Of a DNA stretch of 37,791 nt, positions 2,773 to 19,766 are shown piece by piece (within the stretch, counting starts at the first letter, position 1; each line of letters begins with the position of its first letter). The DNA comes from an uncultured bacterium (lineage in GTDB: Bacteria; Bacteroidota; Bacteroidia; Sphingobacteriales; Sphingobacteriaceae). The stretch covers positions 1-37,791 of the forward strand of contig CAJBBN010000138.1 of the NCBI GenBank assembly GCA_903951325.1, given 5' to 3'. The notes under the pieces are model-generated. The model did not search any database. It worked only from the letters and a program-made list of their open reading frames with translations, and had not been told where the DNA came from. The position numbers and the translations under genes were made by a program.

Positions 2773-3480
2773 TTAAGGGCGCTGACAACAGTTTAAGCTT
2801 GGCGCCGAATGCTGCATGTTTATTTTAGGGCTAAGCATTGGAATGCCTAGGTTTAAACCCCTTAATATTAAAAGCAAGGCAACAATGATGGTAACGATCG
2901 GCAAAGTCTTACGCAGCTTGTTTCTGACAGAAACTTGTATAACCGCGCCAAGCATAGTAAGTATAATTAAGGCAGGAGCAGTTCCTAATCCAAAGAAAGC
3001 CATAAATCCAGCTGCATTTAATGGGCTAGCGGTTATTACTGCTGCTGCTAATGCAACATATACAAATCCGCATGGCAATAATCCGTTTAAAAACCCTAAA
3101 AAATAAATGGAACTAATTTTTTTACTATTAACGAGTTTGGTAAATATTTTTTTAAACCAATGAAATTTTAAAAAAGAAAATGAACTTAATTTATTTGGAA
3201 GTAAAATAGGGAATAAAGTAAACATCAATAAAATTAATCCGAACGCAATAGATACTGTTTGTTGTATTTGAATGATGAACAAGCCCTTCCCAATAAGTCC
3301 AACTAATAATCCAAAAATAAAATAAACTGAAATTCGTCCGCTATGGTATAATAACTGTTTCCAAAATCTGGTACTATTTTTTTCTTGCGATTGTGGCAAA
3401 GCCATTAAAATTGGCCCACACATGCCCACGCAATGAAAACTCCCTAAAAATCCTAATAAAAAAGCGGCGCTTAGTTGCAT
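2773..3480 (-). CDS. SafE/DsbD-like membrane protein at the end of the cbb3 operon
   Basis: This is a 235-residue polytopic inner-membrane protein with about six hydrophobic helices. Two cysteine motifs, SFHCVGMCGP near residues 15-24 and LPCGFVYVALAAA in the second half, are hallmarks of the DsbD_2 (SafE-like) transmembrane family, which is often annotated as a sulfite exporter or cytochrome/urease accessory protein. It starts 6 nt after the fixH-like gene and is the last gene of the cco operon. That position, common in Bacteroidota, suggests a role in copper or thiol/haem handling during oxidase assembly rather than sulfite export. The C-terminus carries a Cys-Cys pair (NCCQRP). The exact substrate is unknown. 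Confidence 0.8.
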   Translation of the reverse strand: MQLSAAFLLGFLGSFHCVGMCGPILMALPQSQEKNSTRFWKQLLYHSGRISVYFIFGLLVGLIGKGLFIIQIQQTVSIAFGLILLMFTLFPILLPNKLSSFSFLKFHWFKKIFTKLVNSKKISSIYFLGFLNGLLPCGFVYVALAAAVITASPLNAAGFMAFFGLGTAPALIILTMLGAVIQVSVRNKLRKTLPIVTIIVALLLILRGLNLGIPMLSPKINMQHSAPSLNCCQRP

Positions 3481-3486
3481 AGTAAA

Positions 3487-3921
3487 CTAGGGGATTACAA
3501 TTACCGATTCGGTTAAATAATACAGACTATCTACTTTCCAATCAATTTTTACTTTGCGCATGCCAGCACTAAAATTTTGCGTTGCAATGTTTACTTCGCC
3601 TTTTATAGCATCAATGGCTTGCGTATAATCTGCATTCGCATCGGAAGGCTTGTACACCAAAACAGATCCAGTAATTTTTTTGTCTTTAAAAGCAGCTGGA
3701 AAGCTGATTAGTAATTGATCATTCCTTAAAAATACTTTAGGTTTTTCAACTAAAGCACCTTCATTTTTCATTTTGACAATTTCGGATTCGAAATTTAATT
3801 CTCTAGCATAATAATCCGGTGCAACCAAATCTACTTTTTGGCTAAAACTAACCACCACCAGTGTAATGATGAGGGCTACAAAACCCAAATACAAAAACAA
3901 AATACGATTTCCCCAATTCAT
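3487..3921 (-). CDS. ccoH: FixH/CcoH-type cbb3 oxidase assembly protein
   Basis: The 144-residue protein has one N-terminal transmembrane helix (about residues 7-27) and a periplasmic domain. The membrane-exit segment FSQKVDLVAPDYYARELNFE, with the D-Y-Y motif, is typical of FixH/CcoH. CcoH helps the subunits of cbb3 oxidase assemble, probably with CcoI during copper delivery. It lies 5 nt after ccoG and 6 nt before the SafE-like gene, inside an uninterrupted cco operon. Sequence conservation of this family is low, so the call depends partly on context. Confidence 0.85.
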   Translation of the reverse strand: MNWGNRILFLYLGFVALIITLVVVSFSQKVDLVAPDYYARELNFESEIVKMKNEGALVEKPKVFLRNDQLLISFPAAFKDKKITGSVLVYKPSDANADYTQAIDAIKGEVNIATQNFSAGMRKVKIDWKVDSLYYLTESVIVIP

Positions 3922-3926
3922 AAAAA

Positions 3927-5339
3927 TTAATTTAAAGGTGCTAAAAATGTAGTTTTAGTGGTTTCTAATAATTTACCGTCGTCGTAAATCCCGATTTTTA
4001 ATTTTGTACTCCGCTTTTGAATATCCTTTTGGTAAACATAAATAAACAGCGTACCAACAGCTGCACTTTCTTTTTCACAAAAAACTTTACCATCGCCAAT
4101 TAATTTAATTGTTGCATTACTTTCTAAAACTTTAAATTGAACATGGAGTTCGCGATGGGTCTTATTGGTTACTTTGAAATTATATAAATTACTAATTGTA
4201 CCATCTTGATTAACTTGATATAACATGCCGGGCGTTCTTAGCATTGTTGTTTCGGTATCTTTTCTACTAATGAGGGTGAATGCCAATGCCGAAACTAATA
4301 TTAGCAATACTGCAGAATACCCTATAATCCTAGCGTTGATCCTTAACTTGGTGCCTTCTGCAATGCCTGTTTCAGAAGAATATTTTATTAAATTTTTAGG
4401 CAATTGTACACGGCCCATAATATCATTACAGACATCAATACATGCTGTACAGTTTACACATTCTAATTGTGTGCCATTTCTAATATCTATACCTGTTGGG
4501 CAAACCGCAACACATTGATGACAATCAATACAATCGCCAATACTGCGTGATTCTCCTTTTCTTATTTTACCTCTTGGTTCGCCACGCTTATAATCGTAAG
4601 CCACTACAATAGATTTTTTATCGAGCAATACCCCTTGCAATCTGCCGTATGGGCAAACAACTGTACAAACTTGTTCTCTAAAAAATGCAAAGACCCAATA
4701 AAAAACATAGGTAAAAATAATAATAGCTGCTAAATCGCCTTTATGCATGGCAATAGGTTCTTCAATTAATCGAACCAATTCGTCTGTACTGATGATATAC
4801 GATAAAAATAAATTGGCGATTAAAAAAGATAAAACATAAAAGATGAAATGTTTGATTGACTTTTTAAAGATTTTTTCGACCGTCCAAGGTGCCCTGTTTA
4901 ATGCAATTTGCTTGTTAGCATCTCCTTCAATAAAATATTCTATTTTTCTGAAAACCATTTCCATGAAAATGGTTTGTGGGCAAGCCCATCCGCAAAACAA
5001 TCGACCAAATATGACCGTAAATAAAATAATGAACACCATAAAAGTGATCATCGTTAATCCCAATAAGAAAAAATCTTGAGGCCCAAATACAACACTAAAT
5101 AAAATGAATTTGCGTGTGATAATGTTGAGCATAAAAAAAGGCAAACCATTTACCCTGATAAATGGCATGCCTACTAAAATTATTAAGAAAAAGACAGCAA
5201 CAATGGTTCTGTAATTGGTGAGCTTTCCCTTAGGTTTTTTTGCAAAAATCCAAAGACGTTTACCTTTATCATCTATAGTAGCTACCTTATCTCTAAAGTG
5301 TTGATCTAATTCTTCTTCGTAATGATAATCTTCGTTCAT
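3927..5339 (-). CDS. ccoG: cbb3 oxidase accessory iron-sulfur protein CcoG/FixG
   Basis: This is a 470-residue membrane ferredoxin. Four or five transmembrane helices carry CGWACPQ (116-122) and CTVVCPYG (225-232). A cytoplasmic dicluster domain follows, with C-x2-C-x2-C-x3-CP (270-281) and C-x2-C-x2-C-x3-C (294-304). The C-terminal part after a last helix (about 335-355) is the periplasmic Ig-like FixG domain. Proteobacterial CcoG has been described as a cupric reductase supplying Cu(I) for the oxidase, and I infer the same role here. The gene sits 6 nt after ccoP and 5 nt before ccoH, so it is co-transcribed with the structural subunits. Confidence 0.95.
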   Translation of the reverse strand: MNEDYHYEEELDQHFRDKVATIDDKGKRLWIFAKKPKGKLTNYRTIVAVFFLIILVGMPFIRVNGLPFFMLNIITRKFILFSVVFGPQDFFLLGLTMITFMVFIILFTVIFGRLFCGWACPQTIFMEMVFRKIEYFIEGDANKQIALNRAPWTVEKIFKKSIKHFIFYVLSFLIANLFLSYIISTDELVRLIEEPIAMHKGDLAAIIIFTYVFYWVFAFFREQVCTVVCPYGRLQGVLLDKKSIVVAYDYKRGEPRGKIRKGESRSIGDCIDCHQCVAVCPTGIDIRNGTQLECVNCTACIDVCNDIMGRVQLPKNLIKYSSETGIAEGTKLRINARIIGYSAVLLILVSALAFTLISRKDTETTMLRTPGMLYQVNQDGTISNLYNFKVTNKTHRELHVQFKVLESNATIKLIGDGKVFCEKESAAVGTLFIYVYQKDIQKRSTKLKIGIYDDGKLLETTKTTFLAPLN

Positions 5340-5345
5340 TTTATA

Positions 5346-6497
5346 TTATAACACTTTCAGCGTGTCGCTAGCAAGCGCTTTTGCTGTGGTATCGACCGTT
5401 GCTGCTTCAACATAGATGGTGCCTTGTGGCGCTTTTGGATTTGCAGGCTTTGTTCCTTTGAGTGTAATAATATAACTGGAAATTTGTTGCATTTCCATTG
5501 GCGTAATTTGACTCTCCCAAGAAATCATTCCTTTTTCTGGCCAACCATATTTTATCGTTTTAAAAATGTCTTTGATGCCGCCTCCATGAATCCAATAATC
5601 GTCGGTTAAGTTAGGACCCACTAAACCTTCTCCATTCATACCATGACATGCGGCACATTTAGTAATGTAACCACTTTTACCTTTTGCTAAGGCTGTTGCA
5701 TCTGTCAATATCAGCACAGATGTTTCATCGACTAAAGCAGCAGTTTTTTTCAAAAATTCATTTTTCTTTTGAATAGCCTGCGCAACTTCTGTATCGTATT
5801 CCATTTGCTGGGTTGGCCCATCGAAATAAGTAAAATAAATCATGTAAGTAATGGCAAAAATAATGGTGCCATAGAACATATATACCCACCAAGGTGGTAA
5901 GCTATTGTCTAACTCTATAATGCCATCGTAGTTATGATCTGTAGCCACCTCTGCTTCTCTATCTAAAGGAATAGCTTTAGTCATGCGTCTCATGATGGCT
6001 GCATAGGTCCATTTAGATTCTGCTTTTGTTTTATAACCTAATGCAATCAGCATCTTTTGTAAAATAGCAAACAAATAAAGGATTACGAAAAGTTCGATAG
6101 CCACTACCAATATTAAAATCATAATGGTATTGGGATCTAATGCGCCAGCTATTTGTGTAATAGGATTAGGCGCAACAGTTGAACTGACTGTTTGCGCCTG
6201 TGCTGATCCTATTCCTAAAATAAAAAATAAAAAAATAACTGGAATTGTTTTTTGAAATTGTTTTGAAATTTTATTATTTACTAAACCTACTAATACCCCA
6301 CCGATTGCTATAATAACTAATAATAAACCTAGAATTGCGAATGCAAAAACCCAAAACAACGGACTGTCCCAAATGCTTGGAGTTACACTAATAGCTGCAT
6401 TCTGTGCTATAGCTTGAGCATTTACATTGGTTATGATAAAAGCAAATAGCAGTAGCAGTAACCACTTTTTAATTTTTAATTTTTTTAGACTATTCAT
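5346..6497 (-). CDS. ccoP: cbb3 cytochrome c oxidase subunit III CcoP, monohaem with N-terminal extension
   Basis: CcoP is the membrane-anchored c-type cytochrome that feeds electrons to CcoO/CcoN. The 383 residues include the CcoP N-terminal motif DNSLPPWWVYMFYG (197-210), a helix (about 204-224) and one cytochrome c domain with CAACH (281-285); M323 or M334 is a candidate axial Met. Proteobacterial CcoP has two haems, whereas only one CxxCH occurs here. The first 150 residues add a signal-like segment (1-27), a helix (about 47-71), a second signal-like stretch ending SAQAQ (83-102) and another helix (about 123-150), as if two membrane modules were joined. The start overlaps the ccoQ end by 8 nt, which suggests translational coupling. 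Confidence 0.93.
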   Translation of the reverse strand: MNSLKKLKIKKWLLLLLFAFIITNVNAQAIAQNAAISVTPSIWDSPLFWVFAFAILGLLLVIIAIGGVLVGLVNNKISKQFQKTIPVIFLFFILGIGSAQAQTVSSTVAPNPITQIAGALDPNTIMILILVVAIELFVILYLFAILQKMLIALGYKTKAESKWTYAAIMRRMTKAIPLDREAEVATDHNYDGIIELDNSLPPWWVYMFYGTIIFAITYMIYFTYFDGPTQQMEYDTEVAQAIQKKNEFLKKTAALVDETSVLILTDATALAKGKSGYITKCAACHGMNGEGLVGPNLTDDYWIHGGGIKDIFKTIKYGWPEKGMISWESQITPMEMQQISSYIITLKGTKPANPKAPQGTIYVEAATVDTTAKALASDTLKVL

Positions 6498-6684
6498 GTT
6501 TGCTAAAATTTAAATGATCATCATTTTTTGCTAAAGGAATATTTCCTAATTCGTTCATTCTTGCGGAATCTGATTTAATTAAATAAATAATAAGTACCGT
6601 AAAAAAAATCACGAAAATAAGGAGAGAAAATAATGGGAATATGGATACGCCCGAAATAGAAGATAAATAATTAATGAATTTCAT
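6490..6684 (-). CDS. ccoQ: CcoQ-like small subunit of cbb3 oxidase
   Basis: This 64-residue protein has one transmembrane helix (about 14-37) followed by a short charged cytoplasmic tail. That is the architecture of CcoQ/FixQ, a small subunit that stabilises cbb3 oxidase. Primary sequence similarity in this family is weak. The assignment rests on size, topology and position between ccoNO (11 nt gap) and ccoP (8 nt overlap), the canonical N-O-Q-P order. Confidence 0.82.
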   Translation of the reverse strand: MKFINYLSSISGVSIFPLFSLLIFVIFFTVLIIYLIKSDSARMNELGNIPLAKNDDHLNFSKHE

Positions 6685-6695
6685 GTTTACCTATT

Positions 6696-8813
6696 TTATT
6701 TTGTTGTTAATTTGATATCCTTGCCAAGTCTTTGCAAATAAGCAATCAAGGCTACAATCTCTTTATCAGAAGCCGTTTTAATTCCAGACTGCGCTAATGT
6801 ATTTTTGATAGAATCTGCTTGATGCATTAAATCTTTGTTCGCGATTAAATCGTAACCCATAGGATAGGGTACCCCAACTGTTTGCATCGCCCTGATTTTT
6901 GCAGCAGTTGAGCTCGTATCTAAATTGTCGTCTAGTAACCAAGCGTAAACTGGCATGATGGATCCCGGTGACATTGAAGTAGGCTCTAGCATATGATTGT
7001 AATGCCAAGCGTCCGGGTATTTTCCACCTTCTCTTTGCAAATCGGGCCCAGTTCTTTTGGAGCCCCATAAGAATGGATGATCGTACACAAATTCGCCAGC
7101 TTTAGAATATTCGCCATAGCGTTCGGTTTCTGATCTAAATGGACGGATCATTTGTGAATGACAAGTATTACATCCTTCTCTAATATAAATATCACGCCCT
7201 TGTAATTCTAATGGAGTATATGGTTTTACACTCGCAATAGTTGGTATGTTATTTTTAATTAAAAATGTTGGGATAATTTCTGCAGCGCCTCCAATTAAAA
7301 TAACTACTAAACTAAATACCATAAACTGAACTGGACGTCTTTCGATCCAACGATGCCAATGTTCGTTTTTAGCTACGCCATAAACCTTAGTTAATGCAGG
7401 TGCTTCGGCCATTTCGTTCGCAATTAATTTGCCCGACGAAGCGGTCTTTATTAAATTGTAAGTCATCACAATTACACCTATTAAATATAATGACCCACCT
7501 ATACTTCTCAATGCATACATTGGAATAATTTGAGTAACCGTTTCTAAAAAGTTTGGATATTTTAAATAGCCCTCTACGGTAAACTCTTTCCACATTAAAC
7601 TTTGGGTAATTCCTGCCCAGTATAAAGGAACTGCGTAAAATAAAATGCCTAAAGTGCCAATCCAGAAATGGAAATTGGCTAATTTTTTGGAGTATAATTC
7701 TTTTCCATAAATACGAGGAAACAACCAATACAACATTCCAAAGGTTAAGAAGCCGTTCCAACCTAAAGTGCCAATGTGTACGTGCGCAACAATCCAATCT
7801 GTAAAATGTGCAATGGCATTCACATTTTTCAACGACAACATGGGGCCTTCGAAAGTAGACATACCATAAGCTGTAATGGCTACCACAAAGAATTTCAGCA
7901 CCACATCTTCTCTCACTTTATCCCAAGCGCCACGCAAGGTTAATAATCCATTGATCATACCACCCCACGATGGTGCAATTAACATAACCGAAAATACCAC
8001 TCCTAATGATTGTGCCCAATCTGGCAAAGAGGTATATAATAAATGATGCGGTCCTGCCCAGATATATAAAAAGATTAAAGCCCAAAAATGAATAATAGAA
8101 AGTCTATAAGAATAAACGGGTCTGTTAGCTGCTTTAGGTAAAAAATAATACATTAAACCTAAATAGGGTGTTGTCAAGAAAAAGGCAACTGCATTATGAC
8201 CGTACCACCATTGAACTAATGCATCTTGTACGCCTGCATACCACGAATAACTTTTAAAAAGGGAAACTGGTATTTCAAAAGAGTTGACAATATGTAATAC
8301 TGCAATTGTTATAAATGTGGCAATGTAAAACCAAATGGCTACGTATAAATGACGCTCTCTTCTTTTTAATATAGTAGCGAACATATTCCAACCAAAAACT
8401 ACCCAAATTAATGCAATGGCAATGTCTATAGGCCACTCAAGCTCTGCGTATTCTTTACCAGAAGTATATCCCAAAGGTAAAGTTATTGCGGCTGCTAAAA
8501 TAATAATTTGCCATCCCCAAAAATTTATCTTACTAAGTACATCGCTATACATTCTGGCTTTACACAATCTTTGTAATGAATAGTAAATACCAGCAAACAA
8601 ACCATTTCCAACAAATGCAAAAATTACCGCATTGGTATGTAATGGCCTAAGTCTTCCATATGTTGTATAAGGAATGCCGAAGTTTAAATTTGGAAAAACC
8701 AACTGAAGCGCAATGTGCAATCCAACGGTCATTCCTATTAAACCAAAAATAATTGATGCGTAAGCAAAGTTGCGCACAATTTTGTTGTCATAATAAAATT
8801 GTTCTTGTTGCAT
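6696..8813 (-). CDS. ccoNO: Fused cbb3 cytochrome c oxidase subunits I and II (CcoN-CcoO)
   Basis: This one 705-residue chain carries the catalytic haem-copper subunit and the monohaem cytochrome c subunit of a high-affinity oxygen reductase. The CcoN part (about 1-485) shows the ligand histidines H59 (RPLHTN), H206 (YGHNAV), H256-H257 (AGPHHLLY), and H344/H346 (AHVHIGTLGWN). After a linker and a helix (about 494-515), the CcoO part has CNTCH (548-552) and a probable axial Met at SIMPVYAW (M620). Proteobacteria encode N and O separately; the fusion is usual in Bacteroidota. The gene starts 8 nt after the ccoS stop. It is probably expressed under oxygen limitation from the promoter upstream of ccoS. 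Confidence 0.97.
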   Translation of the reverse strand: MQQEQFYYDNKIVRNFAYASIIFGLIGMTVGLHIALQLVFPNLNFGIPYTTYGRLRPLHTNAVIFAFVGNGLFAGIYYSLQRLCKARMYSDVLSKINFWGWQIIILAAAITLPLGYTSGKEYAELEWPIDIAIALIWVVFGWNMFATILKRRERHLYVAIWFYIATFITIAVLHIVNSFEIPVSLFKSYSWYAGVQDALVQWWYGHNAVAFFLTTPYLGLMYYFLPKAANRPVYSYRLSIIHFWALIFLYIWAGPHHLLYTSLPDWAQSLGVVFSVMLIAPSWGGMINGLLTLRGAWDKVREDVVLKFFVVAITAYGMSTFEGPMLSLKNVNAIAHFTDWIVAHVHIGTLGWNGFLTFGMLYWLFPRIYGKELYSKKLANFHFWIGTLGILFYAVPLYWAGITQSLMWKEFTVEGYLKYPNFLETVTQIIPMYALRSIGGSLYLIGVIVMTYNLIKTASSGKLIANEMAEAPALTKVYGVAKNEHWHRWIERRPVQFMVFSLVVILIGGAAEIIPTFLIKNNIPTIASVKPYTPLELQGRDIYIREGCNTCHSQMIRPFRSETERYGEYSKAGEFVYDHPFLWGSKRTGPDLQREGGKYPDAWHYNHMLEPTSMSPGSIMPVYAWLLDDNLDTSSTAAKIRAMQTVGVPYPMGYDLIANKDLMHQADSIKNTLAQSGIKTASDKEIVALIAYLQRLGKDIKLTTK

Positions 8814-8821
8814 AGAAATTT

Positions 8822-8986
8822 TTATTTTTTTGATTTTTGTTCTACTAATTCATCGTCAAATAGCATTCTTACAGAAGGAGTATAATCGTCGTCATATTGT
8901 CCGTCATTAACGGACCAGAAAAAGAAAATCAAAAAGCCGATTGCGACTAATAAACTGATACCAATTAAGAGAACTAATACTGCCAT
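8822..8986 (-). CDS. ccoS: cbb3 oxidase maturation protein CcoS
   Basis: This is a 54-residue ORF beginning MAVLVLLIGISLLVAIGFL, a single transmembrane helix, followed by FFFWSVNDGQYDD and an acidic/basic tail ending EQKSKK. The W-x3-DGQ-[YF]-D-D segment just after the helix is the CcoS signature. CcoS is needed to insert haem and copper cofactors into the cbb3 catalytic subunit. The ATG at 8984-8986 is the only reasonable start. It is the first gene of the cco operon, 8 nt before ccoNO, with an FNR-type palindrome centred 54 bp upstream of its start. Some gene callers could miss it because of its length. Confidence 0.9.
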   Translation of the reverse strand: MAVLVLLIGISLLVAIGFLIFFFWSVNDGQYDDDYTPSVRMLFDDELVEQKSKK

Positions 8987-9030
8987 ATGCTATTCTTCAG
9001 CTGTAAAGAAACGCGATATATTTTCCAAAA

Positions 9031-9050
9031 AATATGACATAAATCATATT
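9031..9050. promoter_or_regulatory. FNR/CRP-type operator between ccoS and the truncated haemoglobin
   Basis: AATATGA-N6-TCATATT is a perfect 7-bp inverted repeat with a 6-nt spacer (CATAAA), the TGA-N6-TCA layout of Crp/Fnr-family operators. It lies in the 128-bp divergent region between ccoS and the globin. Its centre is 37.5 bp from the last base of GATATTTG on the plus strand, and 36.5 bp from a weaker TTTCTTTA on the minus strand, so it could serve both directions. The same motif occurs at 11954-11977 and 20314-20327. Confidence 0.72.
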
Positions 9051-9070
9051 ATAAATTAGATTTTATGTAT

Positions 9071-9078
9071 GATATTTG
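9071..9078 (+). promoter_or_regulatory. -7 box of the truncated haemoglobin gene
   Basis: GATATTTG differs from TAnnTTTG at one position. It predicts a start near 9082 and places the upstream palindrome at about -41.5, the class II activator position. The leader would be about 33 nt. Confidence 0.45.
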
Positions 9079-9114
9079 TAGGTAGATAAAAACTATCTAT
9101 TTGAAAATCAGCTG

Positions 9115-9525
9115 ATGAAAAAGGAAATTGAGGATATAGGGGATATTGAGCGATTGGTAAGCCTCTTCTACGACAAGGTAAATCAAGACGATTTATTGAG
9201 TGAGGTTTTTAATGTTCATGCAAAAACAGATTGGGAAAGCCATTTGCCAAAAATGGTACGGTTTTGGTCTGGAATACTATTAGACACTAGCGATTATAGA
9301 GGCCGACCTTTTGAAGCACACGCCAAACAATCTGAACATATTACTCCCGAACATTTTAAAAGTTGGATAGCTTTATTTAAAGAAACTATTTCCGAAAATT
9401 TTGAAGGCGAAAAAGCTGCTTTAGCTATTCAGCGTGCAGAAAGTATTGGTGATATTTTTCAATACAAATTAGACTTTATGAGATTAAACAAAGAGGCTAC
9501 AGACCCAAGTTTAGATAAATTATAA
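9115..9525 (+). CDS. Group III truncated haemoglobin
   Basis: A 136-residue 2-over-2 globin of the TrHb3 (class P/III) type. The block FWSGILLDTSDYRGRPFEAH (50-69) and the following F-x2-W-x3-F (FKSWIALF, 81-88) are typical, with H69 as the likely proximal haem ligand. Group III globins are poorly characterised; proposed roles are NO or peroxide handling and oxygen delivery under microaerobic conditions. It is divergent from ccoS across a shared FNR-like palindrome, which fits co-regulation with cbb3 oxidase. The 3' end overlaps the convergent ccoI end by 6 bp: TTATAA carries both stop codons. The family call is firm and the physiology is inferred. Confidence 0.9.
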   Translation: MKKEIEDIGDIERLVSLFYDKVNQDDLLSEVFNVHAKTDWESHLPKMVRFWSGILLDTSDYRGRPFEAHAKQSEHITPEHFKSWIALFKETISENFEGEKAALAIQRAESIGDIFQYKLDFMRLNKEATDPSLDKL

Positions 9526-11925
9526 ATTTATTTTTGCAGAAATAGCAGTTGCAATTGTAGTAAATAATACAATGGAGATAGAACTGATGGGCATTAATAT
9601 AGCTGCAATTACCGGCGATAGATTTCCTTGCACTGCATAAAATAATCCAACAGTATTATACAATAAAGAAATCACAAAACTTATCACTATAATTTTTTTA
9701 CTCGTTTTAGCAAATTGGATAAATCGATCTAAATTACCAAATGATTTTCCATCCATGATGATGTCACTCGCTGGAGAGAAATAATTAGCTTGGTCGGTAA
9801 TGGCAATGCCGACATCGCTCTGCCTCAATGCTCCTGCATCATTTAAGCCATCACCTACCATCATTACTACCTTTCCTTTTGCTTGGAGCGTTTCTATTTT
9901 ATGTAATTTATCTGATGGGCTTTGTTTGAAATATAAAGGAGTAGTATCTCCTAACATAAATTGTAAGGTGTTACGCTCCGCATCATGATCGCCAGATAAA
10001 ACCATTAACTCAAATTTATTTTTTAGCCGCGCTATTAAACTTGCAAAACCATTTCGATAAACATGCTTTATAGAAAAATAACCTTTAATAGTATTATTTA
10101 ATTCAATATAAACGATACTTTCTTTTAATATTCCATCTTGAATTGCCCCTAAAATGAATTGTTCGGAACCCACTCTAATTTTAAAATGCGGATAACTTGC
10201 TATCATTCCCTTGCCTGGTATTTCTTCAAAAGTAGTTAGTTCAATACTTGAATCATTTTTAATAAAATCATAAATTCTTTTGCTTAATGGATGTGCAGAA
10301 TTCTTAAATAACACTTTTAGTAATTCATTTTCTTGAGCAGAAAGCGGCGCTCCTTTATACACTACATCAGCAAATTTAGCTTCTGTAATGGTGCCTGTTT
10401 TATCAAAAACAATGACATTTATTTTAGCTAGTTTTTCTAAAATACTCGCATTTTTAAGATAAAAAGCTTTTTTCCCTAATTGTCTAATACTGTTACCGTG
10501 GGTAAAAGTTGCAGCCAAAAGCAATGCACATGGGCATGCAATAATGAGCGTTGTTGTTAAAGCATTGATGGCGCGGGATAAGTCTTGTGGTAACCAATAA
10601 AAAAATGCGGCAGCTGTGATGGCAAATAAAACTAGGGTAAAATATTTACTAATGGTTTGCACAAAGGTATATTGTTGCGTTTCTCTTTCTTGAAAAACTT
10701 CTTTATTCCATAATTTAGTTAAATAACTTTGCGAAACTGTTTTTAAAACTTCTAAAGACAAAGATCCGCCAACTTGTTTTCCACCTGCATATAACAATTC
10801 ACCTCTATTCTTTTCGACAGGCTCTGCTTCACCAGTTACAAAACTATAATCAATTTTTCCGGCACCCTTTAGGAGCATGGCATCTACAGGAATTAATTCG
10901 TTATTCCTAACCAGAATATGATCTCCTTTTTTTAATTTATTAACAGGAATTGTTTCTTCGATTCCTTTATTAATTTTAATGATGGACAAAGGGAAAAAAG
11001 ATTTATAATCTCTATCAAAAGAAAGTGTTTCGTATGTTCTATCTTGAAAATAACGACCAATGAGCATAAAAAATACAATACCGGTCATGGAGTCGAAATA
11101 GCCAGCCCCATTGCCATAGAACAATTCATAGACACTTCGACCAAATGTTATTAGAATAGCCAATGCAATTGGCAAATCGATATTTAAATAGCCTTTTAAC
11201 AAACCCTTAATGCCTGTAATAAAAAATTCTGATGCGGCATAAAATAAAACTGGCAAAGAAAGCGCCATAGAGATATAGCCAAAATAAAACTTTAGATTTT
11301 CTTGATCGAAATAGTTTCCTAAAGAAAAATATTCTGGAAAGCTAAGCATCATAATATTGCCAAAAGCAAAACCCGCTAAACCAATTTTAAATAATCTTTT
11401 CCGATTAATAAGATTAGGCTTATTACCTTCTGCGCTTGCTAAACTAATGTGTGGTTCATAACCTATTTCGGCCATTAAAGAAGCGATTGCGGCTAAAGAT
11501 GTTTCCGATTCTTTAAATGAGATAGCTACTTCTTTTCGGGGAAAATTAACAACAGATTGTATTACGCCAGCATTTAGGCGATGCATATTTTCTAATAAAT
11601 AAACGCATGAGCTACAGTGCATGGTAGGCACATGAAAGGTAATGTGCGTTTCTATACCATTACTAAAAGTAATGAGCGATGCTTTTAAATCTGCATCTTC
11701 TAGGTATTGATAGCCATCATGTTTTTTTTGAAACCTACTGATGCCTGGATTTTGATCTAAAGTATAATAGCTGCATAAATTATTTTCAGATAATAATTCA
11801 TATACCAAACTACAGCCTTCGCAGCAAAATGGTTTTTCATCAAAAGTCACTAAATGAGATTCGCAATCCTCTCCGCAATGATAACAGATTTGATTGGCAG
11901 TGATTTCGGCACTATTTTTTTGCAT
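9520..11925 (-). CDS. ccoI: Copper-translocating P1B-type ATPase CcoI/FixI
   Basis: This heavy-metal P-type ATPase has an N-terminal cysteine-rich metal-binding domain (C14, C17, C21, C34, C35, C38), an HMA domain with MHCSSC (C104/C107), eight predicted helices with the Cu-type CPC motif (464-466), DKTGT with the phosphorylated D508, an HP motif (HPLSKR) and GDGLNDAGAL. With the N-terminal ATPase-cat_bd-like domain and cco neighbours this fits CcoI, which moves Cu(I) towards the periplasm for cbb3 assembly. I prefer the ATG at 11925: the upstream in-frame start at 11931 is a TTG inside the promoter. An exact TAAATTTG box ends 4 nt before the ATG, so the mRNA may be leaderless. An FNR-like palindrome is centred 40 bp upstream. 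Confidence 0.95.
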   Translation of the reverse strand: MQKNSAEITANQICYHCGEDCESHLVTFDEKPFCCEGCSLVYELLSENNLCSYYTLDQNPGISRFQKKHDGYQYLEDADLKASLITFSNGIETHITFHVPTMHCSSCVYLLENMHRLNAGVIQSVVNFPRKEVAISFKESETSLAAIASLMAEIGYEPHISLASAEGNKPNLINRKRLFKIGLAGFAFGNIMMLSFPEYFSLGNYFDQENLKFYFGYISMALSLPVLFYAASEFFITGIKGLLKGYLNIDLPIALAILITFGRSVYELFYGNGAGYFDSMTGIVFFMLIGRYFQDRTYETLSFDRDYKSFFPLSIIKINKGIEETIPVNKLKKGDHILVRNNELIPVDAMLLKGAGKIDYSFVTGEAEPVEKNRGELLYAGGKQVGGSLSLEVLKTVSQSYLTKLWNKEVFQERETQQYTFVQTISKYFTLVLFAITAAAFFYWLPQDLSRAINALTTTLIIACPCALLLAATFTHGNSIRQLGKKAFYLKNASILEKLAKINVIVFDKTGTITEAKFADVVYKGAPLSAQENELLKVLFKNSAHPLSKRIYDFIKNDSSIELTTFEEIPGKGMIASYPHFKIRVGSEQFILGAIQDGILKESIVYIELNNTIKGYFSIKHVYRNGFASLIARLKNKFELMVLSGDHDAERNTLQFMLGDTTPLYFKQSPSDKLHKIETLQAKGKVVMMVGDGLNDAGALRQSDVGIAITDQANYFSPASDIIMDGKSFGNLDRFIQFAKTSKKIIVISFVISLLYNTVGLFYAVQGNLSPVIAAILMPISSISIVLFTTIATAISAKINL

Positions 11926-11928
11926 ATG

Positions 11929-11936
11929 CAAATTTA
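11929..11936 (-). promoter_or_regulatory. -7 box of ccoI
   Basis: Read on the minus strand this is TAAATTTG, an exact TAnnTTTG match. Transcription would begin at or next to the ccoI ATG (11925), giving a leaderless or near-leaderless mRNA. The palindrome centre is 36.5 bp from its last base. Confidence 0.55.
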
Positions 11937-12825: not shown

Positions 12826-14424
12826 TTAATTGATGATTATTTTTTTATGATACATTTCGTTACCAGATTTAACTTTTACAATATAGGTTCCTTTACCCAA
12901 TTCGCCCAAGGCTAGCGAACCTTGTGATGCCTTATCTTGATAAAGTAATTTACCAAGCATATCGTAAATATATACTTCGTATAAATTTACATTTCCTTGT
13001 TTTCCGGTAAATAAAATTTCAAAATTACCCTTACTAGGATTTGGGAAAATCACTAATTCTTTATTTTCAATTGTATTATTTTCGACTGAAGTTGAAATGG
13101 TACATTGCTTGAAACCATTATAAGTATTGGTGGTTACCCCACCAGTTGGGGAAGTGTATTTAAAAGTATATACACCATTGGTACTCCATTCGTATTCAAC
13201 CAAATAAGTTAAGCCCGCTAAAGTATAAGTTAAAGCATATCCATTTTGATTGGCATTAGCTACCAAGTTTGTAATCACCGCGCCTTTTAAAGGCGCGCCA
13301 GCTGGTCTAATAGAAGAAGCTTTTGATTGAGGAACAATTTGCAAATCTGCATCTTCTGTTACACTACCAACCATATTACCAATCATGTATGGCGCGGTTG
13401 CAGTTCCATGATAATGATAAACTCCATTGCTTGCATAATGACCATGATTTGCATCTAAGCTTTTCATATTTGATCCATCTGGTTCTAAGGTACCGTATAC
13501 CGCAAAACCATCAAGTGCATAAGCTATTGGATATGTTAAAGGAGAAGTGCTATATAAATGTAGTGGCGCAGTATGGTAATGGTAATCGTCTGCTCTGCCG
13601 CAATGACCGCCCCAATAATCTAATTGCCCATCTAAAAATGCATCGACACCAGTATTAGTATAAGGGTTAAATATAGCAACTCCATTTACGGCAATAGCTA
13701 CTGCACCTTTTAAAAAATGAAACTGGTTTACTGGAACTGGGTTTGCTGCAATTGATGGGTTCAAAGGTATACTCCAGGCATTAGTGCCAATATAACATTG
13801 AGGAATTGGAAATTGTTGCTGCCAACCTGTAATGCCTGTCATCATTCCATGTGATGGAATTCCTTTAGACTCCACCCTAAAATAAGTTGAATCCCAAAAT
13901 GTATTGACTGCTGGTTTGTAAAAAGTAAAAGCAGAATCTATGGTAAGCGGATTGGTTATTGTTTGAAAAGTTCTGATGGCCTTAGCCGTAAATCCTAAAA
14001 AGGAAACAATCATTAGGCAAACTAAAACTGGAATTATTTTGCTGTATTTATGCTTCTGTTGTAAATATATAAGCAAGAAGGTTAAGCTTAAAAAAAGAAT
14101 TAAAAATGGGTAAAAATTTGACTTTTCTTCATTAGCATTAGCGCTGTAGCTCCTTCTAGTATTCAGTTTCAATATATTGCTTGTTTTTTGTGCAATAAAC
14201 TGTTGGTTAGCAATCGAGAAGCTTTTTAAAGGGAAATGGGAGATTGTTCCATTTGAGTTTTCTAAGTAAACTTGCGTTCCTTTCAACATTAAAAATGAAC
14301 CTTGCACGCTTTCTCCTGAAACAGTCCAATGCTGATCAGGTCTATGTGGAAGATTTAAATCGTGCGCAGTTAAATTGTTTTGAAAACTTAACAAAAGGCA
14401 AAAGATGAATACAATTTTTCTCAT
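12826..14424 (-). CDS. YHYH-domain protein with two internal membrane helices and a T9SS sorting tail
   Basis: A 532-residue protein with several modules. A signal peptide (1-20) precedes a small domain at about 27-78 (HWTVSGE...HFPLKSFS) resembling SHD1. Two hydrophobic helices follow (about 104-121 and 129-150). The YHYH domain (about 185-370) has YHYH at 281-284 and 336-339 plus GGHCGRADD just before the first. The C-terminal 80 residues are a T9SS type A sorting domain with FPNPSKGNF. Membrane helices in a T9SS cargo are unexpected. The ATG overlaps the preceding stop (TAATG), so translation is probably coupled. It is the last gene of the MbnP/MbnH/YHYH operon. The function of YHYH domains is unknown; the histidines suggest metal binding. 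Confidence 0.82.
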   Translation of the reverse strand: MRKIVFIFCLLLSFQNNLTAHDLNLPHRPDQHWTVSGESVQGSFLMLKGTQVYLENSNGTISHFPLKSFSIANQQFIAQKTSNILKLNTRRSYSANANEEKSNFYPFLILFLSLTFLLIYLQQKHKYSKIIPVLVCLMIVSFLGFTAKAIRTFQTITNPLTIDSAFTFYKPAVNTFWDSTYFRVESKGIPSHGMMTGITGWQQQFPIPQCYIGTNAWSIPLNPSIAANPVPVNQFHFLKGAVAIAVNGVAIFNPYTNTGVDAFLDGQLDYWGGHCGRADDYHYHTAPLHLYSTSPLTYPIAYALDGFAVYGTLEPDGSNMKSLDANHGHYASNGVYHYHGTATAPYMIGNMVGSVTEDADLQIVPQSKASSIRPAGAPLKGAVITNLVANANQNGYALTYTLAGLTYLVEYEWSTNGVYTFKYTSPTGGVTTNTYNGFKQCTISTSVENNTIENKELVIFPNPSKGNFEILFTGKQGNVNLYEVYIYDMLGKLLYQDKASQGSLALGELGKGTYIVKVKSGNEMYHKKIIIN

Positions 14425-15770
14425 TAATGGCTTATTTTAATTTTTTCGATTTTACTGAAATTTTTACCCATCACTTTTATAAAATAAAAACCATCGTATA
14501 ATTTTCTGACATCAAAATAAGTAATCGTACTACCTTGTACTATTTTATCTGATTGAATAATTTTACCTTGAAGGTCTATTAATTCCAATTGCACGTCTTC
14601 GTTTTGTAAACCACCTAATTGAATGGCTACAAATTCTGTTGCAGGATTGGGCGATACAATGATGCTAGTTTTGATAGTATTGGCTATACCGGTGCTTGGC
14701 GAATAAGTAGTAACGGGCTCTGCAATGGTCGTTACTTTAGCCACTACCCTGCTTCCATAAAACGTAGGGCCAACTATATACGGATAAGCGGAGTTCCAAT
14801 TTTGATCTACTGTTGCGAAATAACAATAAGTGCCATTTGGGAATTCGGGGGTAATACAAAAACGGCCATTGTGTATATCTAAATAATCCGAATTGCTATC
14901 TAAAACAAATTCATAATCTTCTTTGAAATAACCTAATGGATAAGTTGTACTTACCGGAGGTCCAGCTGTAACAGTTGTTCCGTTTGCATATTGCGTACGC
15001 GTACTTATATTTCTGTATTGATAACTTGATTTCATCCTAACAATTCCACCAGTGCCATCCAAATTTTTATATCCATAAGCTCCATAAATTGGAAAGCCAT
15101 CGTAGGCAAAACCAATAAGTGGAGCATGCACATTGCTATCAATTAAATATAATCCATCGGCAACATATAAATTGCAAATGGTAGAAATTACAGAAAGGTC
15201 TAGGCTAAATGCACTCGGATTTTGATGGTGATGATAATTACCCATTGCTGGATGGCCTTTCGCACAATCAAAACCTATGCGCTCTGCAACAACAGCATCT
15301 CTATTCCAAACATTATCGCCCATGCCCCCAAGTGGCCCGCCTGCAAGTGCTCCAGTCGAAGATTTCCAAGATACACCATCTCTATAATCAAACAAAGCAA
15401 CTCCGTTAATAAATAAACCAATATTATTCGGAGTTGTGTTTACCGGATTTCCTGTATTTTTTACTGGATTCAATGGGAGTTTGAAAATAGCATTTTGACT
15501 GGTTGCAAGCGATGGATTACCATCTAAAAAAGGACCAGTTATATAAGATGGAATACCATTCGTTGCCACATAAACATTGGCAGTCGAATACTTTACACTC
15601 AATACATTTGCTAAGGTATTGTCGTTAATAGGTATGTAATTATTTTTCACATAATGTCTGCCCATAATACCAGTTGTATTTTGCAACCAGTTTAAAATTA
15701 CAGGATTAGTTTGGGCAAATGCACTGTGCAAGCCAACTATTAAAATTGATGTTAATACTATTTTTTTCAT
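14424..15770 (-). CDS. Secreted YHYH-domain protein with T9SS sorting tail
   Basis: This is a 448-residue exported protein. A signal peptide (MKKIVLTSILIVGLHSAFAQ) precedes a YHYH-type domain that fills about 40-345. Its features are GLFINGVALFDYRDG, the histidine cluster GNYHHHQN (YHHH at 179-182), GFAYDGFPIYGAYGY, and a block HNGRFCITPEFPNGTYCYF ending with PYIVGPTFYG. The last 80 residues form a T9SS sorting domain (VSPNPATEFVAI). It is therefore expected outside the cell or on its surface. It starts 16 nt after the dihaem protein gene and overlaps the next YHYH gene by one base. It differs from its neighbour in lacking internal membrane helices and the second YHYH. No enzymatic function is known to me. 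Confidence 0.83.
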   Translation of the reverse strand: MKKIVLTSILIVGLHSAFAQTNPVILNWLQNTTGIMGRHYVKNNYIPINDNTLANVLSVKYSTANVYVATNGIPSYITGPFLDGNPSLATSQNAIFKLPLNPVKNTGNPVNTTPNNIGLFINGVALFDYRDGVSWKSSTGALAGGPLGGMGDNVWNRDAVVAERIGFDCAKGHPAMGNYHHHQNPSAFSLDLSVISTICNLYVADGLYLIDSNVHAPLIGFAYDGFPIYGAYGYKNLDGTGGIVRMKSSYQYRNISTRTQYANGTTVTAGPPVSTTYPLGYFKEDYEFVLDSNSDYLDIHNGRFCITPEFPNGTYCYFATVDQNWNSAYPYIVGPTFYGSRVVAKVTTIAEPVTTYSPSTGIANTIKTSIIVSPNPATEFVAIQLGGLQNEDVQLELIDLQGKIIQSDKIVQGSTITYFDVRKLYDGFYFIKVMGKNFSKIEKIKISH

Positions 15771-15786
15771 GCTATTTAGACGCGGT

Positions 15787-16818
15787 TTATTCGTTTTTCC
15801 TTCGATTCAATAACAATAATTCTTTCGGAAAAGCCAATGCAGGATTAAACAAGAATTTTTGATCGGTAAGGGTAAGCAAAAAAGCCGTTAAATCTACCTT
15901 TTCCGCTTTATTTAACTTAATCTTAATACGCGTATGATTGCTTGTAAGAAGTTCAATATTTTCGTAATGATGAAGCACCTCCTGCAATTTACGCACACGG
16001 CCATCGTGCATATAAGGAAATGTAAAGGCAATATTTCTAAGGGTAGGTACTTTAAAACAGATGGAATCTTTTGCACTTTGCGTAATGCGCATGCGCCCCA
16101 TGTCTTTTAAATTTGAATCGATAGGTAAATTATTTTGCTCAAATTTTAAATTGGTAAATAGCGGCTCAGTATGACATGTTGCGCAATTTTTTTTAAAAAT
16201 ATGGTAGCCTTTTTTTTCTTGTGCAGTAAAAGTAGCACTCCCGTTTTTCACACTATCATATTTAGCGCTTGCAGAAACCATTTGCAATAAAAACTGTGTG
16301 ATTGATTTTAAAAAACGATCTGTAGAAATTATCTCATCGCCATAGGCTTGTTTAAATAAATTTTTATAAAAAACGCTGCGATTTAACTTTTCTAAAACAT
16401 GATTTAAATTCTCATCCATTTCTAGGTGATTGGTAAGGGGAGCTAAGGCTTGCATCTCTAAATTATTAATTGCTCCATCCCACATAAAATTTTCGTGCCA
16501 TGCTAAATTCATAAGCCCAGGTGCATTCCGAAAGCCAATACGATCGGCTATTCCATGGCTTAAGGCATGGTCGACATGCGTAAATGCGGTATAATTACTA
16601 TGACAACTTGCGCAAGAAATACTACTGTCTTTAGATAATATGGGATCGTAAAATAAAGCGCGACCAATATTTATTTTATTTGAATCAAAAGGGTTATTTT
16701 TAAAATTATATTTTGGTTTTGGGAAATTTTCTGGTTTTTTAAACTCAGTTTCGGAAGGCGAAATAAATGCAATAGAAAAAACCGATAATAAAATAAAAAA
16801 AACAACGCCCTTATTCAT
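15787..16818 (-). CDS. MbnH/MauG-like dihaem cytochrome c peroxidase family protein
   Basis: A 343-residue periplasmic protein with an N-terminal signal (about 1-20) and two c-haem sites, CASCH (69-73) and CATCH (212-216), in the bacterial CcP/MauG fold. Other conserved stretches are IGRALFYDPILS, RNAPGLMNLAW, FMWDGA, KVPTLRNIAFTFPYMHDGR (257-274) and a C-terminal DLTAFLLTLTD. The plain call is cytochrome c peroxidase. Overlap by 8 nt with an MbnP-family gene points to MbnH, a dihaem enzyme that oxidises a tryptophan on MbnP to kynurenine in methanotrophs. Residues separating MauG, MbnH and peroxidases cannot be settled by eye. Confidence 0.87.
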   Translation of the reverse strand: MNKGVVFFILLSVFSIAFISPSETEFKKPENFPKPKYNFKNNPFDSNKINIGRALFYDPILSKDSSISCASCHSNYTAFTHVDHALSHGIADRIGFRNAPGLMNLAWHENFMWDGAINNLEMQALAPLTNHLEMDENLNHVLEKLNRSVFYKNLFKQAYGDEIISTDRFLKSITQFLLQMVSASAKYDSVKNGSATFTAQEKKGYHIFKKNCATCHTEPLFTNLKFEQNNLPIDSNLKDMGRMRITQSAKDSICFKVPTLRNIAFTFPYMHDGRVRKLQEVLHHYENIELLTSNHTRIKIKLNKAEKVDLTAFLLTLTDQKFLFNPALAFPKELLLLNRRKNE

Positions 16819-17485
16819 TTGATAAATTTTGAACTTTAGAGCAAGTCGCGTTTTCTGAAAGTAATTTTGCTAATTGCACTGCTTTAAGCTGTGGAGACAT
16901 TATTTCAAATTGTTTTTGCGCTAAACAATATTGTAACATGGGCAAAAAATTAAAACTCAAAATATATTTATTATTCGGAAAAACTTCGAAGGAATTAGTT
17001 TGAATAGCATTTAACTTTCCAGCATAGCCACCAACATGATATTGAAATGGCTGTTGAACTTTAGTATTTAAAACCCCTTCTAATTTAAAATTGATATATC
17101 CACTCTGCCAAGCCCAATACATTCCTTTTCGTGGGTCTAAGTCGCCGGTTAAAATTCCTGCAACATTGGTGTTACTATCCACCCCAATATTAAAAGATAC
17201 ACGATTATAAACTTGATTTTTAGGTATATTAAATTGGATTGGATTGGGGTCGAGCAGATCAATCAAATGCGCTTGGTTAGTGTCTACAAATACCAATTGC
17301 GCTTGATTATAAAATTTAAAATTAGTTAAATAGATGGCGCATTTAGAGATTTTAAGGGAATCATTGAGGTATAGCTGATCAAAATCCGTTTGCAAAAAGA
17401 AAGTTGTTTTTTGTGATTGTGCAGGAGCCTCTTTATATATAGCAGCACAGCATAAAAAAAGTAAAATTAGTTTCTTAAAGTACAT
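16811..17485 (-). CDS. MbnP-family protein, putative copper-binding partner of MbnH
   Basis: A 224-residue exported protein (signal 1-22, ending APA) rich in beta strands. Diagnostic MbnP stretches are visible: FNIGVDS (98-104), GDLDPRKGMYWAWQSGYINF (114-133) and FQYHVGG (147-153). MbnP of methanotrophs binds copper after its partner MbnH converts a tryptophan to kynurenine; W124 and W126 are the candidate sites here. It is the first gene of a four-gene operon and overlaps the dihaem gene by 8 nt. The downstream genes encode T9SS-exported YHYH proteins. An exact TAGTTTTG box sits on the minus strand at 17596-17603, implying a leader of about 107 nt. Family membership is well supported; copper binding in this organism is inferred. 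Confidence 0.82.
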   Translation of the reverse strand: MYFKKLILLFLCCAAIYKEAPAQSQKTTFFLQTDFDQLYLNDSLKISKCAIYLTNFKFYNQAQLVFVDTNQAHLIDLLDPNPIQFNIPKNQVYNRVSFNIGVDSNTNVAGILTGDLDPRKGMYWAWQSGYINFKLEGVLNTKVQQPFQYHVGGYAGKLNAIQTNSFEVFPNNKYILSFNFLPMLQYCLAQKQFEIMSPQLKAVQLAKLLSENATCSKVQNLSNE

Positions 17486-17612: not shown

Positions 17613-19766
17613 ATGTTTGCTAAATTAAAATTTGATTTACCATCCAGTGTGGTGGTGTTTTTAGTGGCCTTGCCATTGTGCTTAGGTGTTGCGCTAGCAA
17701 GTGGTGCCCCAATGCTTTCTGGTGTAATTGCGGGTGTAATTGGTGGTGTAATTGTGGGTTTATTAAGCGAATCCCATACCAGTGTAAGTGGACCAGCGGC
17801 CGGTTTGGCAGCAGTAATACTAACAGCCATTGGCACACTCGGTAGTTTTGATTTACTGTTAATGGCCGGTGTAATAGCAGGTTCTATTCAGCTTCTCAGT
17901 GGAATTTTCAAGCTTGGTTTTATTGCAGACTATATACCTTCAAATGTAATCAAAGGATTGCTAGCCGCAATCGGTATCATTTTAATTTTAAAACAAATTC
18001 CACATAGTTTTGGCTATGATGCAGATGTGGAGAACGACTTCAGTTTTATTCAACAAGATGGAGAAAATACATTTTCAGAACTCATCAATGTCGTAAATCA
18101 TTTTTCAGGTGGTGCAATTATTGTATCCCTTATTTCATTACTTGTTTTAATTTACTGGGATAAAACGCCCTTAAAAAAATATAATTTTTTACCTGCATCT
18201 TTATTTGTAGTAATTAGCGGAATATTAATAAATTTAGTTTTTCAGCGATTTATTCCGAATCTTTATATTGAACAATCACACCTAGTTAATATTCCTAAAA
18301 TCAATGGTATTTTATCTTTAGTTACCACTCCAAATTTTGCTGGCATTAGCAATCCTCAAGTTTGGATAGTTGGTTTCACCATTGCCATTGTTGCTTCACT
18401 AGAAACCTTACTTAACCTCGAAGCAGTTGAAAACATTGACCCTCACAAGCGAAAAGCATCACCAAATAAAGAATTAGTAGCGCAAGGAATAGGCAATATT
18501 TTTTCAGGTTTAGTTGGCGGAATACCCATCACATCAGTTATTGTAAGAAGCTCGGTTAATATCAATGCCGGTGCTGCAACAAAAATGTCAGCTATATTAC
18601 ACGGTTTACTTTTATTCGTCAGTGTATTATTTATTAGCCCTTATTTAAATTTAATTCCTATCGCTTCTTTAGCTGCTATACTATTGGTAACAGGTTATAA
18701 ATTAGCAAAAGTTTCTTTGTTCAAAGAAATGTATAGAAAAGGATTGAATCAGTTTATTCCTTTTATTGCTACAATTTTAGCCATCGTTTTTACAGATTTA
18801 TTGATTGGTATTTTAATTGGTTTGGCAGTTAGTATATTCTATTTAATGAAAAGTAATTTTAAAAATCCTTTTAAAATAGAGAAAGAAGCACTTGCTTTTG
18901 GTGAAACTATTAGAATGGAATTGCCCAATCAAGTTTCTTTTTTAAATAAAGCAAGCATTAAAGACACGCTTTGGTCTATTCCGGAGGGATCTAAACTCAT
19001 CATAGACGCCAACTATTCCGATTATATTGATAATGATGTATTAGAAATTATTGAAGATTTTAAGTCTACTGTTTCTAAAGAAAAAAATATCAAACTAAAT
19101 ATTGTAGGTTTAAAAACGATGTATCAGCTCGATGATCATATTCAGTTTGTCAATGTTTTAGACAAAGAAAGTCAAGGAAAATTAAAGCCCGAAGAAGTGC
19201 TAGGTTTATTAAAATTGGGTAATGAAAGATTCCTAAAAGGCAAATGGTCGCAAAAGAATTTAAAGCACCAAGTTAATGCAACTTCATTAGGTCAGAATCC
19301 AATGGCAACAATTGTAAGTTGTATCGACTCTAGAACCAATCCAGATTTAATATTTAACGCAAGTATAGGCGATCTTGTTTCTATTAGAATTGCAGGTAAT
19401 ATTATCAACGATGATATTTTAGGCAGCATAGAATTAGCCTGCAAAGACTTAGGAACCAAGCTAGTGGTGGTTTTAGGGCACAGCAATTGTGGTGCTATTG
19501 CCAAAGCAATTCAAGGCAATAGTGCTGGTCATATATCCAATATTACCAATAAAATAGAAAAATCTATTCAAGCTTGTAATTGCGAAAGACATTTAATAGC
19601 GGGTGATGAAAAAGTTATCGAGCGAATCACTCAATTAAATGTCGACAATTCTATTGCTGAAATTCTTGACCAAAGTGAATACTTAAAGAATAAAGCGACA
19701 AACGGTGAAATTAAAATTGTATCGGGAATTTACGATACGCAAACTGGCGCTGTCTTGTTTAACTAA
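17613..19766 (+). CDS. SulP-family anion transporter fused to beta-carbonic anhydrase
   Basis: A 717-residue fusion. Residues 1 to about 410 form the SulP membrane domain, with the GPAAGLAA stretch and later LAAILLVTGYKL. A STAS-like region follows (about 430-515). A beta-carbonic anhydrase fills about 525-717, with zinc ligands C570, H623 and C626 and the D572/R574 dyad in CIDSRTNPD, then GHSNCGA. The pairing suggests coupled bicarbonate transport and CO2/bicarbonate interconversion at the inner membrane. Such fusions recur in Bacteroidota. It has its own promoter region divergent from the MbnP operon. Its 3' end overlaps the convergent small membrane gene by 4 bp. Confidence 0.94.
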   Translation: MFAKLKFDLPSSVVVFLVALPLCLGVALASGAPMLSGVIAGVIGGVIVGLLSESHTSVSGPAAGLAAVILTAIGTLGSFDLLLMAGVIAGSIQLLSGIFKLGFIADYIPSNVIKGLLAAIGIILILKQIPHSFGYDADVENDFSFIQQDGENTFSELINVVNHFSGGAIIVSLISLLVLIYWDKTPLKKYNFLPASLFVVISGILINLVFQRFIPNLYIEQSHLVNIPKINGILSLVTTPNFAGISNPQVWIVGFTIAIVASLETLLNLEAVENIDPHKRKASPNKELVAQGIGNIFSGLVGGIPITSVIVRSSVNINAGAATKMSAILHGLLLFVSVLFISPYLNLIPIASLAAILLVTGYKLAKVSLFKEMYRKGLNQFIPFIATILAIVFTDLLIGILIGLAVSIFYLMKSNFKNPFKIEKEALAFGETIRMELPNQVSFLNKASIKDTLWSIPEGSKLIIDANYSDYIDNDVLEIIEDFKSTVSKEKNIKLNIVGLKTMYQLDDHIQFVNVLDKESQGKLKPEEVLGLLKLGNERFLKGKWSQKNLKHQVNATSLGQNPMATIVSCIDSRTNPDLIFNASIGDLVSIRIAGNIINDDILGSIELACKDLGTKLVVVLGHSNCGAIAKAIQGNSAGHISNITNKIEKSIQACNCERHLIAGDEKVIERITQLNVDNSIAEILDQSEYLKNKATNGEIKIVSGIYDTQTGAVLFN

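Follow-up and report, generated by a model that had tools for sequence, protein, structure and literature searches.

An MbnP/MbnH-like gene pair from the Bacteroidota with a kynurenine site predicted at the first of the two WxW tryptophans

The 37,791-nucleotide stretch of DNA analyzed here (the window), from an uncultured member of the Sphingobacteriaceae (Bacteroidota), carries on its minus strand a gene for an MbnP-like protein, a putative secreted copper-binding protein of 224 amino acids (positions 16811 to 17485), followed by a gene for an MbnH-like diheme enzyme of 343 amino acids belonging to the MauG/cytochrome c peroxidase (CcP) superfamily (15787 to 16818). We propose, with a probability of about 0.8, that these constitute a Bacteroidota MbnP/MbnH system, in which W124 of the MbnP-like protein would be converted to kynurenine and would contribute to a Cu(I) site along with H150 and probably M122, leaving W126 unmodified. 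The analysis shows the family and the fold, an equivalent motif, conservation, coupled genes, and a heme ligand signature, and we infer that the two proteins form a complex, that kynurenine is produced, and that copper is bound. The original prediction, which had likewise read the pair as MbnP and MbnH, gave correct residues and numbering for W124 and W126 in a GMYWAWQSGY motif and H150 in an FQYHVGG motif. The coordinates that it attached to the motif, 16811 to 16818, are those of the 8-bp minus-strand overlap between the stop of the mbnP-like gene and the start of the mbnH-like gene; the WxW motif itself is encoded at 17108 to 17116 on the minus strand.

The MbnP-like protein and its motif

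The protein matches the Pfam MbnP profile (PF20243) with 114 bits against a gathering score of 27 (E = 1e-32), and the methanotroph MbnPs fall in the same family. Its sole match in NCBIfam is TIGR04052, “MbnP_like_WxW,” and the 39 of 39 members of our alignment A1 match this model and no other. An AlphaFold2 model computed from 39 homologues has a mean predicted local distance difference test score (pLDDT) of 89.5. In a Foldseek comparison of this model with the PDB, the top six hits are chains of 7L6G, the MbnP of Methylosinus trichosporium (E-values of 2.2e-5 to 2e-4, probability of 1.00); apart from these chains, none scored below an E-value of 0.08. The Pfam assignment and a fold match to 7L6G alone, together with the MauG-type tyrosine ligand of the partner enzyme described below, bear out the MbnP/MbnH reading.

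A PDB search with the single sequence of the protein found no MbnP. A profile of the Bacteroidota proteins retrieved 7L6G at an E-value of 0.0096, with the GMAWNW of the latter on the GMYWAW block, and a profile-profile comparison with a reference alignment of four methanotroph MbnPs (E = 1.3e-9) pairs M122, W124, and W126 with M173, W175, and W177 of the Methylosinus sporium MbnP and H150 with H208, without any gap within the WxW motif. The combination of WxW with a preceding Met and a later His, by which MbnPs are recognized, is present in the window's protein. In the M. trichosporium MbnP, MbnH reportedly turns the first Trp of this motif into kynurenine, and the Cu(I) site is said to comprise one His, one Met, and one solvent ligand together with the kynurenine, which lies nearby. 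As the motif aligns without a gap and oxidation in Methylosinus is reported for the first Trp, the kynurenine site is probably W124, not W126, to judge from the alignment, and kynurenine would form there in this organism as well. The original prediction had allowed that an alignment might place the known site elsewhere, and this is not what we found. It had also left the choice between the two tryptophans open; that choice resolves to W124, and it was less open than had been held, because a first-Trp rule had reportedly been described for the Methylosinus MbnP and the NCBIfam model bears WxW in its name.

W124 and W126 (codons at 17114 to 17116 and 17108 to 17110, minus strand) are the only tryptophans in the protein, and H73 and H150 are its only histidines. 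The candidate copper ligands H150 and M122 are encoded at 17036 to 17038 and 17120 to 17122 on the same strand. Both tryptophans lie in the tryptic peptide 121 to 134, GMYWAWQSGYINFK, with a computed [M+2H]2+ of 875.906 when unmodified and 877.903 with kynurenine (+3.995 Da).

The MbnH-like partner and the proposed reaction

The enzyme belongs to PF03150 (1.3e-49) and matches the Methylosinus MbnH (6E1C) at 3e-33. Its best NCBIfam match is the model for MbnH family diheme enzymes, TIGR04039, at 193 bits, short of the curated cutoff of 362.85. The two CxxCH heme motifs typical of MauG/MbnH-type enzymes are present on the minus strand as C69-x-x-C72-H73 (16600 to 16614) and C212-x-x-C215-H216 (16171 to 16185), with the Cys and His residues of both invariant among 147 sequences. 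An axial Tyr instead of Met separates MauG and MbnH from ordinary diheme peroxidases, and at this position the window's enzyme has Y285 (15964 to 15966, minus strand), a predicted axial ligand that pairs with a Tyr in MbnH 6E1C and with a Met in the peroxidase 1IQC; 140 of 145 sequences carry Tyr in its column. We equate Y285 with Tyr294 of MauG because the alignment to the MauG chain ends with residue 286 of the query on residue 295 of the chain. A Trp occupies the column of W113, which we take to be the inter-heme Trp, in 129 of 147 sequences. A small set of MbnH-like proteins (L140, L111, L112, L114, and L115) instead have Met or Phe at the axial Tyr position.

The coupling of the two genes is tight: under a strict criterion, 110 of the 116 MbnP rows have an MbnH-like gene adjoining them, and one further row is cut by a contig end. 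At eight loci (L115, L118, L122, L124, L126, L130, L131, and L136), a tandem pair of MbnH-like genes lies beside the MbnP. A further MbnP of the window's genome (L001, contig C152) has an intact WxW motif and no MbnH-like gene within the available 5.6-kb contig.

Both proteins are presumably exported. We postulate that the MauG-type diheme enzyme, with its Tyr-ligated heme, would reach a high-valent state and oxidize W124, which comes first in WxW, to kynurenine. H150, probably M122, and kynurenine-124 might then make up a single Cu(I) site, while W126 would remain a Trp that may stabilize the site or pass electrons.

Natural variants and alternative readings

Conservation was assessed over 116 distinct MbnP homologues from Bacteroidota and Pseudomonadota, with counts that are not phylogenetically independent. 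The column of W124 is Trp in 114 of these and that of H150 is His in 115, while W126 is matched by Trp in 104 and M122 by Met in 103; this is far beyond chance and agrees with the earlier claim of a conserved motif. Another candidate Met ligand, M196, is kept in the window's own clade but is found in 44 of 116 overall, below M122, and was set aside. In an MbnP tree built without the motif columns, the window's protein sits in a fully supported clade of 33 rows.

Given that W126 is itself highly conserved and lies two residues from W124, it could be W126 that is oxidized, or both. Parsimony on the tree places three changes at W126, one of which falls in a decayed tandem copy, so that two clades remain. 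In the first (L003, L116, L121, and L125, together with L120 and L128), the motif reads MEWPxx or takes a related form; in the second (L123, L127, L131, L132, and L135), the second Trp has moved by one residue or is absent. Trp is retained in the W124 column by most of these rows, one row having neither Trp, and an MbnH-like gene adjoins every one of them except L135. Taken with the reported oxidation of the first Trp in the aligned Methylosinus protein, this makes modification of W126 quite unlikely. The same variants bear on the product. The product of MauG itself is a crosslinked tryptophylquinone, and with 167 bits for the MauG model the window's enzyme comes near its 193 bits for the MbnH model, so a W124-W126 crosslink or a quinone might be formed in place of kynurenine. 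However, the retention of MbnH beside MbnPs without W126 means that such a crosslink cannot be the general reaction, and the substrate has the MbnP fold rather than being a methylamine dehydrogenase; we regard a product of this kind as highly improbable. It could also be argued that an ordinary cytochrome c peroxidase is encoded here, with the MbnP-like protein as its unmodified partner, for the best PDB matches of the enzyme by E-value are bacterial diheme peroxidases (1iqc, 6.7e-38), and both proteins lie under the NCBIfam equivalog cutoffs. A diagnostic axial residue that is Tyr rather than Met, the coupling of the mbnH-like gene to MbnP, and the near-invariance of W124 all speak against it, and we consider it very unlikely.

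Against the oxidation of W124 within an MbnP/MbnH system stand several observations. The MbnP-like protein misses the TIGR04052 equivalog cutoff (30 bits against 140), and its TM-score to 7L6G, as given by Foldseek for the predicted model, is only about 0.5; this TM-score implies a core common to the two proteins, which are nevertheless divergent. The Met proposed as a ligand is replaced in 13 of 116 homologues. The first-Trp rule is not absolute, since in L128 the W124 column lacks a Trp despite an adjoining MbnH-like gene. Further, the proposal was reached from sequence and predicted structure. The window's protein is a divergent member of the known MbnP kind.

Some of the variant loci merit description in their own right. 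In L128 (1892 to 3722) and its sister L120 (2978 to 4816), FNVPAML or WNVPEML replaces WxW beside an adjoining MbnH-like gene; the alignment register of L120 is doubtful, and in this pair the target may be another residue. At L132, a divergent tandem MbnP copy (3671 to 4432) lacking both Trp and the His lies beside a copy that keeps them. The window's genome has a paralogue (L003, contig C51, 1423 to 2157) that possesses the first Trp only (AMEWPYTLGGGY) and its own adjoining MbnH-like gene. Two MbnP fragments of this genome with a common end sequence (L004 at the start of contig C225 and L005 at the end of C144) probably represent a single gene broken across two contigs, and the genome would therefore encode about four MbnPs.

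Comparison with characterized systems

The window's MbnP-like protein and the MbnPs of M. trichosporium OB3b (7L6G) and other methanotrophs (L068 to L071) share the Pfam family, the fold detected by Foldseek, the GM-x-W-x-W motif, a downstream conserved His (in VHxG, against YHVGG in the window), and an adjoining MbnH. In contrast, the methanotroph proteins are longer (about 325 residues against 224), identity to 7L6G in the structural match is 11 to 13%, and nothing here was matched to the Cys-rich C-terminal portion of the methanotroph MbnPs. Unlike them, the window's pair adjoins cbb3 oxidase and YHYH genes, and no methanobactin genes were recognized among the window proteins checked. The MbnH of M. 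trichosporium (6E1C) resembles the window's enzyme in its two CxxCH hemes, MauG-type Tyr, and adjacency to mbnP; it is longer (388 residues against 343), and the window's protein falls under the TIGR04039 cutoff. MauG (3L4M) is also a diheme enzyme with an axial Tyr that acts on a protein Trp, but it makes tryptophan tryptophylquinone in methylamine dehydrogenase and gives only a 71.6-bit match to the window's enzyme. A kynurenine near copper is established chemistry in CorA and MopE, with the Trp-derived kynurenine of CorA lying 2.9 Å from the copper and a diheme partner gene accompanying it (PMC3912023). The methanotroph CorA/CorB and MopE/SACCP systems resemble the proposed one in a Trp-derived kynurenine near copper and a diheme partner gene, and CorA and MopE differ from it in having two His ligands.

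The YHYH cassette and the gene neighborhood

The pair is followed on the same strand by two genes for YHYH-domain proteins with type IX secretion system (T9SS) sorting tails (PF18962), the first at 14424 to 15770 (PF14240, 6e-58) and the second at 12826 to 14424 (PF14240, 3e-13). The order mbnP-mbnH-YHYH-YHYH is maintained on one strand with gene ends overlapping or almost touching, the second YHYH start overlapping the first YHYH stop by one base. Among 20 relatives of the window's MbnP, MbnH adjoins in all 20 and a YHYH gene is next in line in 14. From the other side, two independent genome-wide searches showed an MbnP no more than 4 kb away from 28 of 50 strong YHYH matches, in every case on the same strand, with 23 of these YHYH matches downstream and 5 upstream. 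The MbnP-MbnH-YHYH cassette, with its genes on one strand, is found repeatedly across the class, and the YHYH link is strong as a gene neighborhood. In the literature searched, YHYH proteins were tied neither to copper nor to MbnP, and the predicted YHYH structure (pLDDT of 43.8) was not used further. Coming from the same operon-like run, the two YHYH proteins are likely to be functional partners of MbnP/MbnH. More tentatively, MbnP, MbnH, and the secreted YHYH protein of Bacteroidota might form a three-component system, in which YHYH would obtain copper from, or be matured by, the MbnP/MbnH pair; we put this forward as a possibility that is less probable than its contrary.

Beyond the YHYH genes lie a CRP-type regulator, a heavy-metal P-type ATPase, and a cbb3 oxidase cluster; the stretch from 2773 to 11931 (minus strand) holds the latter (CcoNO, CcoP, FixG, and FixH) along with a DsbD-like protein and the ATPase. 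A conserved linkage to the oxidase was considered and dropped, with no CcoNO match near MbnP/MbnH in the neighborhoods of the 20 relatives. Elsewhere in the window are a SulP-type transporter fused to carbonic anhydrase, divergent from mbnP (17613 to 19766, plus strand), and a small bacterial-like globin gene (9115 to 9525, plus strand; PF01152, 5e-6).

Implications

The chemistry and the kind of system are already known; what is added here is the predicted residue, the natural variants that separate the two tryptophans, and the YHYH linkage. To our knowledge, no MbnP of the Bacteroidota has been characterized, and a two-way question is now reduced to one testable residue, W124, with the variants separating its role from that of W126. 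Through the linkage, a probable copper system becomes associated with the YHYH family, and the three-component arrangement, if true, would provide the first functional context for this uncharacterized family.
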